In this document: one piece after another, positions 4,094 through 35,193 of the stretch
Layout: each line of letters opens with the position of its first letter
Position numbering within the stretch: position 1 is the stretch's first letter
Assembly: GCA_938084925.1 (NCBI GenBank)
Contig: CALKFY010000075.1
Coordinates: forward strand, 1-49,799
From: an uncultured Pseudomonadales bacterium
GTDB lineage: Bacteria > Pseudomonadota > Gammaproteobacteria > Pseudomonadales > Balneatricaceae
Length of the DNA: 49,799 nucleotides
Reading direction: 5' to 3'
The notes under the pieces: model-generated
Told to the model about the DNA's origin: nothing
Database searches by the model: none
The model's input: only the letters and a program-made list of their open reading frames with translations
Position numbers and translations under genes: made by a program

Positions 4094-4999
4094 CTAATCA
4101 CTGGCAGTTTTCATAAATAAAGGTTTCATGCTTTCCAGCATACTCACAAAAGGGCGCAATACCGGGTTGGTGTTGCGCTGGCGCCACTGCACATAAACCG
4201 GAATACATGAATCAATATCTTTTATTGGCAAACGCACGATACCTGGCCTAACGGCAGTGCCGGGTAACTCATAGTTCAAACCCATACCCACACCCATCTG
4301 TACCAAGGCATCCATACTCACCGGGTCATCTGTGACAAAGGCAATATTGTAAGGCTGATTGTGGCGCCCAAAATAGTCATCCAGCATCATGCGCTGCGAA
4401 CGCCATTTATTGTATGGCCCAACCACAAACCTTTCATTGATCACATCGGCAAATTCGACATAGGGCCGATGGGCTAAAAGGTGGTTTTCTGGCGCTATAA
4501 AATAGATTTCTTTATTGGCAATATGCAAAAATTCCAAATTTGGCTCCGGCGATAAGTCGCTGATAAATCCCAAATCAATCGTACCATCATGCAGGTTGCT
4601 GGCGATTTCCTGAGTCCAAGCGAACTTAGGTGTGACGTTTATGGCCGGCATATTAGCCAATACATGGGCTATCACTCTTGGCAAAATATCCGACATTACA
4701 TTGCCCGAATAACCTAATTCAATAGTACCCACCTGCCCTTGGCTCAAGGCCAGTAACTCATCACGCAAGTTCTCATCTTGGGAGACTATTCTTTGGGCAT
4801 GGCGCAAAAACACCTCACCATAGGGCGTGATGGCCATTTTCCGTGTAGTACGACTAAAAATGGCATGGCCATACTCTTCTTCCAAATTAATTATCACTCT
4901 GGTGACTTTAGAATTGGCCAAACCTAACCGTTCGGCAGCTAATGAAAAACTCAAATATTCCGCCACCTTGAGGGCAATTTGGGCCTCGTCAATACGCAT
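4094..4999 (-). CDS. LysR-family transcriptional regulator
   Basis: A 301-residue LysR protein: N-terminal winged helix-turn-helix (SFSLAAERLGLANSKVTRVI), linker helix and an effector-binding domain from about residue 90. The start is supported by GAGGA close upstream. It is divergent from the ABC binding-protein gene starting at 5132, so it is the natural candidate regulator of the transport and hydrolysis operon at 5.1-12.9 kb. That link is inferred from position only. The 132 bp shared intergenic region is AT-rich and holds short dyads but no clear T-N11-A box that I could settle on. Confidence 0.88.
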   Translation of the reverse strand: MRIDEAQIALKVAEYLSFSLAAERLGLANSKVTRVIINLEEEYGHAIFSRTTRKMAITPYGEVFLRHAQRIVSQDENLRDELLALSQGQVGTIELGYSGNVMSDILPRVIAHVLANMPAINVTPKFAWTQEIASNLHDGTIDLGFISDLSPEPNLEFLHIANKEIYFIAPENHLLAHRPYVEFADVINERFVVGPYNKWRSQRMMLDDYFGRHNQPYNIAFVTDDPVSMDALVQMGVGMGLNYELPGTAVRPGIVRLPIKDIDSCIPVYVQWRQRNTNPVLRPFVSMLESMKPLFMKTASD

Positions 5000-5131
5000 A
5001 AATTCCTCAATTATTCTATTTTTTGCAATAATTGAATCAATTTAGCATATTCCCTTACCTTATACGAATGTCTTACTCTGTTGACTCAGGTCAATAAAAA
5101 TATAATTACCTGCAAACTACGGAGAACTATA

Positions 5132-6694
5132 ATGAAGACAAAAAATACTTGGCTAAAGGCCGCCACTATTGGTGCCGCCTTAACTGCCAGCGCCACGGCC
5201 ATGGCCGGTAACGATTTACGCTGGGGCATGACCGGTGACGCAATTTCCTTAGACCCACAAGGTGTTTTGGGGGCTGTAGAAATTATCTTCTTACGCAATG
5301 TCTATGATGGCTTGATGGTGGTAGATGGCGACAACCAGCCTATGCATGGTTTGGCGGAAAGCCATGAAGTACTTGCTGACGGCACTATTCGCTTTACTTT
5401 GCGCAAGGGTGTGAAGTTCCACGGTGGTCAAGACTTTACTGCTGATGACGTGGTGTTCTCTATCGCGCGTACGCAAGGTGAGAAAAGCGCCTTTAAGAGC
5501 ATGGTAGCGGCGGTAGACAAGGCGGTTAAAGTGGACGACTACACAGTCGACATCATCATGAAACGCCCTGATCCACTAATTCTTAGCAATTTAGCTAACG
5601 CCTATATTATGGACTCTGGCTGGGCAGCAGAACACGGAGTAGAAGAAGCACCAGGTGGTGCTAACAAGGGTTTGTACACAGAAAACAACATGAACGGTAC
5701 CGGCATGTTGAAGCTAGTTGAGCGTCAACCCACTATCTCTTCCACGCTCGTACGCAATGATAACTTCTGGGGTGATGCCACAGATTATTACCCTGGTAAC
5801 ATCGATAGGGTAATCACCACCACCATCGGCAGCGCCTCTACTCGTGTAGCAACACTCCTGTCTGGCGATTTGGAGCTGGTAACGGAAGTACCGCTACCTG
5901 ACTTAGGTCGCGTCGATAGTGACAGCAATCTAAAGATAGAAGGCACGGCGCAATTGCGTACTATCTTCTTTGGTTTCAACCTAACCACCGACAACCTAGT
6001 TTCTACTGAGGGCAACCCATTTGCCAAGCCGGAAGTTCGTAAAGCTGTATCGGTGGCGCTAGACCGTGGTTTGATTCAGAAGAAGATTATGCGTGGCGTA
6101 TCCGTACCCACCACTATTCTAGCTTACCCTGGCACACAAGGGCATACTGATGCTTTAGCCGCAGTAGAAAAGGGCAACCCCAAAAAAGCTAAAGAAATGC
6201 TAGCAGCAGCTGGCTACCCTGATGGCTTCTCGGTACAGTTGGATTGTCCTAACAACCGTTATGTTAACGACGAATCTATCTGTCAAGCCGCTGTATCTAT
6301 GCTAGCTAAAGCCGGTATCAAGGTGAACTTGAACGCCTTACCAAAGGACCAGTGGATGCCACTATTGCTAGAAGACAAGTCTGACTTCTACATGCTAGGT
6401 TTTGGTACCCCGACCAACGACTCTTTGTTCACCTTTGGTCACATCTACAACCAGGGTCCATTCCAGTCTGGCTACGCCAATGCTGAAGTCACCGCTCTTA
6501 TCGGCGAAGCCGCTGTTGAAGCTGATGCCGCTAAGCGTACCGTGATGATGGAGAAGATTTCACAGATCACCAAAGACGACATGGCAGTAGTGCCTGTGCA
6601 CTACCAGATGATTAACTGGGGCATGACCAATGGTCTAAGTATTCCGGTTGACTTTAGTAACCTGCCAAACTTCCGCTACGCGGTAATGCAGTAA
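5132..6694 (+). CDS. Peptide/nickel-type ABC transporter, periplasmic substrate-binding protein
   Basis: A 520-residue family 5 solute-binding protein (DppA/OppA type). The ATG at 5132 is preceded by GGAG (5121-5124) and starts a clean Sec signal peptide (MKTKNTWLKAATIGAALTAS, likely cut after AMA at residue 25). An ORF start upstream at 5081 would bury this signal and is rejected. The mature part begins RWGMTGDAISLDPQG, typical of the family, and continues with LRKGVKFHGGQDFTADDV. It heads the operon with two permeases, a fused ATPase, a DUF2817 hydrolase and an amidase, suggesting a peptide or amide ligand. Upstream are TTGACT (5081) and TATAAT (5101), spaced only 14 bp, so the promoter is uncertain. 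Confidence 0.92.
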   Translation: MKTKNTWLKAATIGAALTASATAMAGNDLRWGMTGDAISLDPQGVLGAVEIIFLRNVYDGLMVVDGDNQPMHGLAESHEVLADGTIRFTLRKGVKFHGGQDFTADDVVFSIARTQGEKSAFKSMVAAVDKAVKVDDYTVDIIMKRPDPLILSNLANAYIMDSGWAAEHGVEEAPGGANKGLYTENNMNGTGMLKLVERQPTISSTLVRNDNFWGDATDYYPGNIDRVITTTIGSASTRVATLLSGDLELVTEVPLPDLGRVDSDSNLKIEGTAQLRTIFFGFNLTTDNLVSTEGNPFAKPEVRKAVSVALDRGLIQKKIMRGVSVPTTILAYPGTQGHTDALAAVEKGNPKKAKEMLAAAGYPDGFSVQLDCPNNRYVNDESICQAAVSMLAKAGIKVNLNALPKDQWMPLLLEDKSDFYMLGFGTPTNDSLFTFGHIYNQGPFQSGYANAEVTALIGEAAVEADAAKRTVMMEKISQITKDDMAVVPVHYQMINWGMTNGLSIPVDFSNLPNFRYAVMQ

Positions 6695-6711
6695 GTTTCA
6701 TTGCTATATTT

Positions 6712-6738
6712 GGGCCCTACTAGCTAGGGCCCTTTTTT
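6712..6738 (+). terminator. Rho-independent terminator/attenuator between binding protein and permease genes
   Basis: A perfect 8 bp stem (GGGCCCTA at 6712-6719 with TAGGGCCC at 6725-6732), a 5-base loop and six T residues follow the binding-protein stop by 17 bp. Its position inside the operon fits partial termination, giving more binding protein than membrane components. Confidence 0.9.
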
Positions 6739-6838
6739 CTTCCCTATTATTGATTCGTTTAAGAATTTTGCAAAATGCGCAACAGCTGCTCATTTTCGCA
6801 AAGCTTTTACTCACCCAGAAAGGTTTCAGGAGCCAATC

Positions 6839-7804
6839 ATGGCCATCAAATTACTGCAACGCTTGTTACAGTCAATGCTAGTACTGTTAGCCACCGGATT
6901 TTTGGCATTTCTCATTATGAGTTTTGCCCCAGACCCCGTAGACAACATCGCTGGCGATTACGCCACCACCGAAGACCGCGCCCGCATTCGCGCAGAGTTG
7001 GGCTATGACCGCCCATTCTTAGTGCAGTATGGCGAATATATGGTGAAATTTGTGCAGTGGGACCTGGGTAGCTCATTACGCACCTCGGAACCCGTTGCCG
7101 AATTGATTGCCTCCCGTGCCCCAGCCACCCTTGAGTTGGTACTGGTCTCCACCATCATGACCTTAGGTGCCGGCATTTGGTTAGGCATCTACACAGGCGT
7201 ACACCGCCGCAGCAAACGTACCCAGGCCATTCTAACTAGTAGCTTGCTAGGTATTTCTATGCCTACCTTCCTACTGGGCTTGTTAGCCATTTATATTGGC
7301 GCCGTCGAACTCGGCTGGTTCCCAGCCTCTGGTCGCAAAGCTGTTGATACTTGGATGTGGACTTCATCCCTCGTTTCTTTAGAAGGTTGGCGCTCCATTT
7401 TTATGCCTGCACTTACACTATCTATCTTTAACGTCGGTTTGTTTATTCGCCTAGTCCGTGCCGATGTGTTGGAAATCCGCACCATGGACTACATCAAATT
7501 TGCCCGTGCTCGAGGTTTGCCAGAAAAAACCATCAACAACAAGCATGTATTACCTAACGCCATTATGCCGGTAATTAATGTCGCAGCCTTGAACATTGGT
7601 GTCATGATCGCCTTCTCTCTGATCACCGAATCGGTTTTCCAGTGGCCTGGCCTTGGTTTGATGTTTATTCAATCCATCTCCTTTAGCGACTTCCCGGTAA
7701 TGTCGGCCTACTTCCTACTAGTGGCAGCCATCTTTATTGGCTTAAACCTGTTGGCTGACGTGTTACTGTCCATCGTCGACCCACGAATCCGCCGAGGCGA
7801 ATAA
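6839..7804 (+). CDS. ABC transporter permease (DppB/OppB-like)
   Basis: A 321-residue inner-membrane permease. The N-terminal helix (LLQRLLQSMLVLLATGFLAF) and the following periplasmic segment (DPVDNIAGDYAT, then RAELGYDRPFLVQYGEYM) are the DppB N-terminal signature. The cytoplasmic EAA loop is at RADVLEIRTMDYIKFARARG, followed by HVLPNAIMPVI. A ribosome site (CAGGAG) precedes the ATG. It is two bases upstream of the second permease, with which it would form the membrane channel. Confidence 0.93.
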   Translation: MAIKLLQRLLQSMLVLLATGFLAFLIMSFAPDPVDNIAGDYATTEDRARIRAELGYDRPFLVQYGEYMVKFVQWDLGSSLRTSEPVAELIASRAPATLELVLVSTIMTLGAGIWLGIYTGVHRRSKRTQAILTSSLLGISMPTFLLGLLAIYIGAVELGWFPASGRKAVDTWMWTSSLVSLEGWRSIFMPALTLSIFNVGLFIRLVRADVLEIRTMDYIKFARARGLPEKTINNKHVLPNAIMPVINVAALNIGVMIAFSLITESVFQWPGLGLMFIQSISFSDFPVMSAYFLLVAAIFIGLNLLADVLLSIVDPRIRRGE

Positions 7805-33141: not shown

Positions 33142-34452
33142 TTACCATTCAAATTCGGCAATCTTGTAAAGCTCTGCCGCGTTTCTTAAAGATAGCTGGC
33201 GGTAAGTCTTCCACTGCATAAACTGTGATTGGTCGATCTTATAAGCATCCGTTAGATCACCGCCGTCATCCAACACCTTCATTACTTCATCAACCATGTA
33301 GTTAATATAGCCCATGGTGTAATGAGTTACGGTTTCTAGGTCTGTAACACCACCGTGGCCAGGGATAATGATTTTTGGATTCAACTCTTCAAGTTGCGCC
33401 CAGTTTTCCTGCCAAGCCAGCATGTCCGTGTGCTCCAATACAGGCAGCATTCGTACGTTAAAGGCGAAGTCACCGGAAATCAGCAGCTCATCTTCAGGCA
33501 ACCAAAGCTGCATATCATCTGGACTGTGGGCATGGCCGAAGTGCTTGAGTACAATTTCTTTGCCCTTTACTGGTACAACGTATTCATCAGAGAAAGTACG
33601 ATCTGGCATGACTACGTGAGACTTAAAGAACTTGTCTTTTAGGCTGCGTTGAGTACGCTCCATCATCTTTTCAGCATCATGTTCTAAGATCTCTGGGGTA
33701 TTTTCGTGAGCAATAATCTCCACACCCTGCTCTTTCCAGTAGCTACCACCAAATACCGCGTGGCCTTGGGCGTTCTCATAGATAAGATACTTAACTGGTA
33801 GATCGGTAACTTGCTTGATTTCTTCGTGCATGGCCTTGGCTAGCAAATAGCTGCCACCACCGTTAAATACCACTACGGCATCATCTGCAACGATAAAGCT
33901 CAAGTTATTGTTGTGACCAGAGTTTTCATAGGTAGAAGGGGCTGGCGCACCAATAGCAGAATAAACACCTTCAACGACTTTCTCAGGACGCTGGTACAAC
34001 AAACTGTTAGCATCGAGTGTGCGTAGGTTGGTATCCAAACCCATTTCTTGCCATTCAAAAAAACCACCGTCATAGTTACTAACGTTGGTATAACCCATAT
34101 TCATTAACGTTTGTGCTGCCATCGGGCTTCGCACGTTAGTACCGCAATAAACCACAATTGGCGTATCAAAGGATTCTACAGCTTCGCCTACATCAAATTC
34201 GATCCAACCACGTGGAATATTGATGTTCTGATAAATACCCAAGGTACCTAACAAATTCACTTCGTACTGCGTACGCACGTCAATAACGACGGTCTCTGGT
34301 TGGTCTTTGATCTGCTGCTGTAACTGCTCAGCAGTGATATGGGTGATAGCGTCATTGGCTGCGGCCAACATTTGTTCGCTAGTCGGTACTGTTGTTTGGG
34401 CAATTGCGGTGCTTGAAAACAACAAAGCAAAAGACAATAGATAAGATTTCAT
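33142..34452 (-). CDS. Secreted rhodanese + metallo-beta-lactamase-fold fusion with altered metal motif
   Basis: A 436-residue protein with a signal peptide (cleavage likely after AIA at 18), a rhodanese domain (about 35-145, active cysteine C103 in YCGTNVRS) and an MBL domain (about 155-436). Later MBL motifs are kept: H307 (GHAHSPDD), D328 (ISGDFAF), H366 (IPGHGG). The first motif, normally HxHxDH, is NAQGHA (227-232), so both leading histidines are lost; H231 takes the place of the aspartate. The periplasmic enzyme may hold one metal or have a new role. Persulfide or thiol chemistry is suggested by the fusion. It is monocistronic. Confidence 0.8.
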   Translation of the reverse strand: MKSYLLSFALLFSSTAIAQTTVPTSEQMLAAANDAITHITAEQLQQQIKDQPETVVIDVRTQYEVNLLGTLGIYQNINIPRGWIEFDVGEAVESFDTPIVVYCGTNVRSPMAAQTLMNMGYTNVSNYDGGFFEWQEMGLDTNLRTLDANSLLYQRPEKVVEGVYSAIGAPAPSTYENSGHNNNLSFIVADDAVVVFNGGGSYLLAKAMHEEIKQVTDLPVKYLIYENAQGHAVFGGSYWKEQGVEIIAHENTPEILEHDAEKMMERTQRSLKDKFFKSHVVMPDRTFSDEYVVPVKGKEIVLKHFGHAHSPDDMQLWLPEDELLISGDFAFNVRMLPVLEHTDMLAWQENWAQLEELNPKIIIPGHGGVTDLETVTHYTMGYINYMVDEVMKVLDDGGDLTDAYKIDQSQFMQWKTYRQLSLRNAAELYKIAEFEW

Positions 34453-34600: not shown

Positions 34601-34942
34601 TCAGGCAGAGCTGTTTATGGTATTGGCAATAGATTCAACAACAACTTGATTGATGCTTTTGCCAGCTGCCGCAGCTTTAACAACCAACCCTTCATGCAAT
34701 TCAGGAGAAATTCTGACATTAAATTTGCCAGAATAATTTTTCTTTGGACTTACACCGTCCTCTCGACACATAGCGAGAAACATATTCAACGACGCTTTAC
34801 CTTCAGTTTGAAGACCTTCTATATCAGACGCATAGAAATCAGCACCACCATTCAAATTAATGAACTCGCCTCTAAACATCTCAAACTCAGGATCGTACTG
34901 AATCACAGCATCGTATTCATCTATATTCATAACATTAATCAT
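34601..34942 (-). CDS. hicB: HicB-family antitoxin
   Basis: A 113-residue antitoxin: N-terminal HicB fold (IQYDPEFEMFRGEFINLNGG and ASDIEGLQTEG) and a C-terminal ribbon-helix-helix type DNA-binding part (GKFNVRISPELHEGLVVKAA and KSINQVVVESI). The start ATG at 34942 overlaps the toxin TGA (ATGA). It neutralises the HicA RNase and should repress the operon through the dyad at 35207-35223. The open frame extends further upstream, but that part lies inside the toxin gene. Confidence 0.9.
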   Translation of the reverse strand: MINVMNIDEYDAVIQYDPEFEMFRGEFINLNGGADFYASDIEGLQTEGKASLNMFLAMCREDGVSPKKNYSGKFNVRISPELHEGLVVKAAAAGKSINQVVVESIANTINSSA

Positions 34943-35193
34943 GGCTCTATCCCGTTTACTGCTAGCCAACGTCTAACACTATTTACAGCACCTTTATCAG
35001 TATCTGGCGAAGGGTGAGGTCTATGAAAAACCCTACGCTCACCAAATAGCCGGACACCTATACGAGATCCTTCTCCTTCCACTATTTCAGCCCCTAGCTC
35101 AAGAAACAGCTGTTCAATGTCCTTCCATTTGACATTACCACTCACAGGTCTAGAAAAAATAAGCTCAAGGGTTTTCTGATGCTTTCTTTTCAT
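34939..35193 (-). CDS. hicA: HicA-family mRNA interferase toxin
   Basis: An 84-residue HicA toxin: VKWKDIEQLFLELGAEIVEG, then GSRIGVRLFGERRVFHRPHP and the conserved DKGAVNSVRRWL tail. The family GSH motif is GSR here, as in the HicA subgroup that carries the FHRPHP histidines instead. It is a double-stranded-RNA-binding-like RNase that cleaves mRNA when free. It leads the operon and its predicted transcript begins at, or within a base or two of, the ATG. Confidence 0.9.
   Translation of the reverse strand: MKRKHQKTLELIFSRPVSGNVKWKDIEQLFLELGAEIVEGEGSRIGVRLFGERRVFHRPHPSPDTDKGAVNSVRRWLAVNGIEP

Follow-up and report, generated by a model that had tools for sequence, protein, structure and literature searches.

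Organization of the gene and its product

The window, which is the whole 49,799-nucleotide stretch of DNA that was analysed, carries on its minus strand an uninterrupted open reading frame that encodes a protein of 436 amino acids, followed by a stop codon. The gene reported at 33142-34452 in a preliminary description, which did not give the strand, is real, and the two domains assigned to its product, an N-terminal rhodanese and a C-terminal metallo-beta-lactamase (MBL) domain, were both recovered by profile searches (Table 1). The match to Lactamase_B, PF00753, scored 39.3 bits against a cut-off of 22.7 and spans residues 251-366 only. The rhodanese match passed the curated cut-off and the active-site CxxxxR loop is present (C103-GTNV-R108), with its cysteine retained, as had been described. 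The N-terminus, read by eye, resembles a Sec signal peptide, as the earlier proposal of an exported protein had it, and hydrophobic N-termini were likewise seen by eye in most fusions compared; the rhodanese-SoxH protein is apparently exported.

The identity range in Table 1 refers to four genomes of the same genus (G002, G006, G012 and G014), found in a scan of 56 related genomes. When the window gene was compared with L141 and L139, dN was low (0.078-0.126 per domain) and dS large or saturated; since dS was mostly saturated, dN/dS could be estimated only in part. A promoter and terminator scan gave a signal no higher than in shuffles. Directly upstream of the fusion are two overlapping minus-strand frames named by eye as HicB-like (34601-34969) and HicA-like (34939-35193), and a similar HicB/HicA-like pair precedes the fusion in L033.

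Table 1. Coordinates of the features discussed (positions in the window unless a locus is named)
Feature	Position	Strand	Basis
Rhodanese-SoxH fusion gene	33142..34452	-	matches in four same-genus genomes, 71-83% identity
Signal-peptide-like N-terminus, residues ~1-19 (MKSYLLSFALLFSSTAIAQ)	34396..34452	-	read by eye from sequence
Rhodanese domain, residues 40-136	34045..34335	-	PF00581, E 4.7e-15, 56.3 bits vs cut-off 22.2
C103, rhodanese active-site cysteine in YCGTNVRSP	34144..34146	-	sole Cys of whole protein
SoxH-type MBL domain, residues 150-436	33145..34005	-	family alignment, tree, fold match to MBLs
H180-N181-N182-N183, second family signature (GHNNNLSF)	33904..33915	-	NNN 48/48, H180 46/48
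N227-A-Q229-G-H231-A232 replacing HxHxDH	33757..33774	-	sequence; aligned to CphA N-Y-H-T-D-R
H309, true motif-3 histidine	33526..33528	-	48/48
D328, motif-4 aspartate	33469..33471	-	48/48
H366, motif-5 histidine	33355..33357	-	48/48
Genes following soxB in related sox clusters	L104:10736-11626, L105:7721-8614	-	G014 and G012 clusters

Identification of the MBL domain as SoxH

A tblastn search of plasmids (86 records) returned Paracoccus, Ruegeria and Limimaricola among the 20 records listed. The matching gene of P. pantotrophus pPAN3 (L043) and of P. denitrificans (L044) is immediately preceded by soxY, Z, A, B, C, D, E, F and G, an order established from the frames read and a similarity table, both records being without annotation there. 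Because it follows soxG in the sox operon, this gene is soxH by position. The two Paracoccus copies have the motif ENGQGHA and the neighbouring SoxG has the canonical HGHPDH. The window MBL domain is approximately 42% identical to these SoxH proteins and falls on the same side of the tree, a kinship that makes the window protein a rhodanese-SoxH fusion. Ruegeria sp. SCSIO 43209 and Paracoccus sp. SMMA_5_TC have annotated sox clusters in which SoxH is paired with another MBL gene; in Limimaricola the gene is surrounded by other genes, outside a sox cluster.

Scans of 369 genomes of the class and 398 of the phylum gave 63 genomes with a match at E 1e-40, representing several kinds of MBL, and 8 with a match at E 1e-60, the window genome included, respectively. 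After duplicates were removed, 68 MBL sequences were aligned; nine short matches (three each from L087 and L075 and one each from L092, L026 and L028) were dropped. The tree calculated without the motif columns comprised 66 rows, the incomplete L005 and L072 being left out, and placed the N-x-Q-x-H rows (49, L073 included) on one side of a branch supported at 92/83, not starred. Next to them is a set of seven rows with G-x-Q-x-H-R (100/97), followed by four with HxHxDH and six with HxHxVR. Since the N-x-Q-x-H rows adjoin the G-x-Q-x-H-R rows, two sister groups have in common a Gln at motif position 3 and a His at position 5. Neither MBL tree includes L107-L113; five of these seven sequences (L108, L109, L111, L112 and L113) were read for the motif, which is N-x-Q-x-H-[AS].

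Two other groups also have an odd motif. At L031, the match of G012, a close relative, the fusion (6001-7308, plus strand) lies 381 bp from a divergent paralogue (4684-5619, minus strand) with GGQDHR in place of HxHxDH; this second group, G[GT]QDHR, is also represented by L013, L014, L048 and L076-L078. The third, consisting of L015-L020 and PDB 8d2z, has HYHAVR, and in the rows read Arg replaces the motif-5 His (GGRG or PGRG).

Conservation of the altered motif

The HxHxDH motif that is canonical for MBL hydrolases is absent, and NAQGHA is found exactly at residues 227-232, where the preliminary description had placed it. As the PF00753 match covers only residues 251-366, the part of the domain with this motif lies outside it. 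The metal residues named earlier were H307, D328 and H366. The two last were correctly assigned, but the motif-3 histidine is H309, since only 3 of the 48 SoxH rows have a His at 307 and all of them have one at 309.

In the same rows, a count that excludes L073, ten residues are invariant (N181, N182, N183, N197, N227, H231, H309, D328, R334 and H366), while Q229 is present in 47 (Asp in L070) and A232 in 46 (Ser in L047 and L067). The window protein has the complete family signature, that is N-x-Q-x-H-[AS] together with HNNN, N197, H309, D328 and H366. The replacement residues are nearly fixed across the family, so the odd motif is more than chance. A homologue search, which had been suggested as a check, found N-x-Q-x-H-A conserved across the SoxH rows. 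Seven MBL-only relatives with 43-48% identity, from the scan of 56 related genomes, have NGQ[SG]HA, and a contig scan gave 12 loci, including fusions of Thioglobus and Bathymodiolus symbionts and MBL-only forms of Alphaproteobacteria; when the window protein was added, N227, Q229, H231 and A232 were kept in 13/13.

What had been taken for a rewritten zinc motif is the regular form in SoxH proteins, those of the Paracoccus sox operons included, and is neither private nor a sign of decay. Normal HxHxDH in close relatives would have meant a private mutation; this does not apply, because the gene has NAQGHA in G002, G006, G012 and G014, the four further genomes of the genus where it occurs, and the conservation in 48 SoxH rows refutes a private mutation of the motif. 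The preliminary view that the protein had changed its function rather than decayed was right to exclude decay, but its change of function, if taken relative to SoxH, was too strong a claim.

Distribution of the rhodanese fusion

Rhodanese-SoxH fusions were read at 18 loci (the window, L002, L003, L004, L005, L034-L039, L050-L055 and L113), of which L005 and L113 are both cut by a contig end; a broken copy in G164 is excluded from this count. The rhodanese active-site cysteine is kept in 17/18 and is Ser in L113. This fusion (L113/L133), from outside the class, reads VVYSSANRRSP, and its SoxH motif is intact up to the contig end. The fusion recurs in the genus, in Thioglobus and Bathymodiolus symbionts and elsewhere, and many SoxH proteins have no fused rhodanese. 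An AU test of one clade for the rhodanese fusion gave p 0.055, so that a single origin was neither established nor rejected; on the rhodanese tree the fusion pattern requires 3 changes.

A second type of fusion, in which another N-terminal domain precedes SoxH, was found in L059, L062 and L063; the Pfam run on L059, one of the three, matched this domain to dienelactone hydrolase (DLH), PF01738. A DUF302 protein is the divergent neighbour of the fusion in L034 (by Pfam) and in L036 and L037 (by similarity), and the L045 and L047 sox clusters also contain DUF302 genes. Frameshifts interrupt the rhodanese-SoxH fusion of G164 (L087), a 1.4-Mb genome that keeps soxB, and the SoxH of G339 is split.

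A link between the fusion and loss of soxCD was considered and rejected as a rule, because soxC is part of the sox cluster in the same-genus fusion genomes G012 and G014, and this soxC-bearing stretch of DNA is matched in G002 and G006, which also have the fusion. In the class sample, SoxC (E 1e-60) was present in 1/6 genomes with an intact fusion, a count that leaves out the window genome and the broken G164, both without a SoxC match. The corresponding figures were 9/14 for genomes in which SoxH is fused to neither partner and 0/3 for those with the DLH fusion.

Association with the Sox system

In the class sample, soxB was found in 151/369 genomes overall, in 24/25 of those with SoxH as against 127/344 of the others (Fisher p 2.4e-9, kinship ignored). 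Presence of SoxH was defined here by E 1.2e-90 or better, a threshold chosen after the list had been viewed, and the count adds the frameshifted G164 and the split G339 and includes the window genome. Weaker hits, whose motif was checked in part, were counted apart, and soxB was present in 32/34. Among the 56 relatives, soxB (E under 1e-40) was found in 11/12 genomes with SoxH and 6/44 without (p 8.8e-7, kinship ignored), or 17/56 in total; at 1e-20 the total rises to 21/56 and the second figure to 10/44. Genomes with soxB and without SoxH are common: the class sample has 127 of them, and the genus contributes G004, G010 and G013.

The sole SoxH genome without soxB in both samples is that of the window, which is 87% complete. 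Searches of this genome for soxB, soxC and SoxY found none of them, and the sox cluster of its sister G014 gave one 77-base match only; soxB and SoxY are present in G002, G006, G012 and G014, the genomes with the fusion. Since the three genes gave no matches in an 87%-complete genome, we infer that the Sox partner of the window gene is either missing or located in the unassembled part.

The window itself has no sox gene other than SoxH. At least two sox genes besides soxH were found in only 5 of the 52 stretches scanned (L043, L044, L045, L047 and L130), where the 52 include L048 (G-x-Q-x-H-R), both halves of a gene that is split, and some stretches that share a genome. As most of the loci scanned lie outside a sox cluster, membership in one is not a strict criterion for SoxH. 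The G014 and G012 sox clusters have genes for an alpha/beta-hydrolase (Pfam for the L104 copy) and a thioredoxin-like protein after soxB.

One paper lists soxH as a gene of unknown function in sox operons (PMC11237559), and two cite SoxH as possibly releasing sulfate from SoxY in Campylobacterota (PMC10045233, PMC11237559). In Thiodiazotropha, whose genomes have soxB, PMC11237559 considers a SoxB-like role of SoxH improbable. Because SoxH nearly always accompanies soxB in our samples, SoxH is unlikely to be a simple replacement for SoxB; work on another bond, or on sulfur delivered by the rhodanese, fits better.

Fold, metal site and proposed reaction

The AF2 model (13 sequences) had a pLDDT of 76.8 and a pTM of 0.66, with residues 168-182, a stretch that touches the HNNN signature (H180-N183), under 50. 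The model resembled chlorothalonil dehalogenase 6uxu, 8d2z and CphA, with Z scores of 31.2, 31.0 and 28.1, aligned lengths of 276, 274 and 221 and rmsd values of 2.4, 2.5 and 2.3, respectively, in Foldseek and VIA comparisons that cover mainly residues 148-390. With phmmer, the window domain aligned with the B2 carbapenemase CphA over the motif. N227, Q229, H231, A232, H309, D328 and H366 are aligned with N116, H118, D120, R121, H196, C221 and H263 of CphA. The single zinc of CphA is held by D120, C221 and H263. If this map, which rests on the sequence alignment to CphA, is right, the first zinc site has been lost and the second is left with a His-Asp-His set, so that the ordinary two-metal site of canonical MBLs has likely disappeared.

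We give about even chances to the following interpretation: the fusion is probably periplasmic, C103 takes up sulfane sulfur, and the SoxH site, with at most one metal, cleaves sulfur bonds on carriers of the SoxYZ type. After export to the periplasm, C103 would carry sulfane sulfur as a persulfide, transferred from or to a SoxYZ-type carrier, a polysulfide or a small thiol. With H116 and H118 replaced by N227 and Q229, the first zinc site would be lost, and no more than one metal would be bound at the second by H231 (for D120), D328 and H366. H309 would then be free for catalysis, as in the mono-zinc B2 MBLs. The site may hydrolyse a sulfur-sulfur, S-sulfonate or thioester bond, either on the carrier or on the rhodanese persulfide, and the fusion would pass sulfur from one site to the other. 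The reaction is a candidate drawn from context. Family identity, the order of the domains, conservation of the odd motif and the co-occurrence of SoxH with soxB are established. These, the tree, the CphA map and fold match, the PQQ-linked parallel described below and the sulfate release cited for Campylobacterota favour this interpretation. The Thiodiazotropha argument counts against it, because the presence of soxB is the usual situation for the SoxH genomes studied here. So do the lack of soxB, soxC and SoxY matches in the window genome, the many soxB genomes that have no SoxH, the rarity of SoxH inside sox clusters, the Ser of L113, the SoxH proteins with no fused rhodanese and the middling quality of the AF2 model. 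A more specific proposal, that SoxH is a mono-metal MBL enzyme with a new type of active site acting on protein-bound persulfides handed over by the rhodanese, is a long shot; in its boldest version the metal would be iron and the reaction oxidative, which would make SoxH a periplasmic persulfide oxidase unrelated to persulfide dioxygenase (PDO).

Alternative explanations

The SoxH domain might instead be a metal-free, non-catalytic scaffold or binding module that presents SoxYZ to the rhodanese domain. Other families include MBL domains that are catalytically dead, and four canonical ligand positions are changed nearly family-wide (N, Q, H and A for H, H, D and H), both of which speak for such a module. 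However, H309, D328, H366 and the replacement H231 are all conserved in 48/48 rows, which is unexpected without a metal or catalysis, and SoxH without rhodanese is widespread, so we regard this explanation as rather unlikely. Decay of the gene, or a private mutation, is very improbable indeed: the window genome has no detectable sox genes and the copies in G164 and G339 are frameshifted and split, respectively, but the frame in the window is intact, dN is low with a large or saturated dS, and the motif is constant in the 48 rows except for one Q-to-D and two A-to-S changes.

The remaining alternative is a 2-His-1-carboxylate iron site (H231, H366 and D328) catalyzing periplasmic persulfide oxidation, as a functional analogue of PDO. 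The residue set permits a facial triad and SoxH is distributed together with soxB. On the other hand, the ligand positions of the SoxH site differ from those of PDO. Moreover, 5ve3 (BpPRF), the one PDO fusion recognised among the 60 PDB matches listed, is matched through query residues 35-138, the rhodanese only. No protein named PDO is among the 49 PDB matches (E 0.01 or better) of the MBL domain, which aligns with the B1/B2 lactamases and 8d2z instead. These PDB matches gave no sequence support for PDO activity, one of those that the preliminary description had proposed to test. Rhodanese-PDO fusions with an altered motif, HXQADY, are described for cable bacteria in PMC13047784 and speak for such an iron site, which overall appears improbable.

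Of most interest here is that SoxH proteins in general have the unusual motif. Given this family-wide N-x-Q-x-H-A signature, SoxH is not to be regarded as a common zinc hydrolase, and its repeated fusion to a rhodanese names the likely partner chemistry. With its single cysteine, the fusion protein is a test object for the SoxH reaction. The literature searched, available in part and largely outside the older subscription Sox papers, makes no mention of the SoxH motif or of a rhodanese-SoxH fusion.

Comparison with known systems

The closest counterpart is Paracoccus SoxH (soxFGH), which shares with the window protein the MBL homology (~42%), N-x-Q-x-H-A, HNNN, N197, H309, D328 and H366. It has no rhodanese and is part of an operon, whereas the window copy has a rhodanese and lies outside any sox cluster. 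The subclass B2 MBLs CphA and Sfh-I are similar in fold (Z ~28), in the Asn at the first motif position and in the proposed mono-metal logic. CphA, however, has NxHxDR and a Cys at motif 4, where the window protein has NxQxHA and D328, and the score with the B2 beta-lactamase model NF033087 was 61.9 against a cut-off of 240. The matched rhodanese of BpPRF (5ve3) forms the C-terminal end of the chain, at residues 272-369.

Among the NCBIfam models, those of the quinoprotein relay zinc metallohydrolases, TIGR04558 and TIGR04559 (hydrolase 2), scored highest, with 118.8 and 162 bits, both below the curated cut-offs of 300 and 280. Phyllobacterium L106, annotated as belonging to the quinoprotein relay family, has HMHPDH, unlike the NAQGHA of the window; this canonical-motif homologue adjoins a SoxYZ-like carrier, and a rhodanese-domain CXXCW protein is found in the same PQQ cluster. 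Four proteins related by similarity, with cut-offs not applied, keep HxHxDH (L021, L023, L024 and L143), and L143 adjoins a SoxYZ-like frame in G014. PMC12997753 describes a trio in Pseudomonas putida, a rhodanese, a SoxYZ-like carrier and a SoxH-like hydrolase, which occur together and consistently accompany a certain type of PQQ alcohol dehydrogenase. The window fusion joins two of the three parts of this Pseudomonas/Phyllobacterium trio. The PQQ parallel is weakened because PMC11582611 interprets a Hyphomicrobium SoxYZ/SoxH-like group as PQQ-dependent alcohol catabolism, not sulfur oxidation.

Rhodanese-MBL fusions were known already. PMC13047784 reported in 2026 that the Rho-PDO of cable bacteria likewise has an N-terminal rhodanese joined to an MBL domain with an altered motif; that MBL domain is PDO-like, while the window MBL domain belongs to another family.
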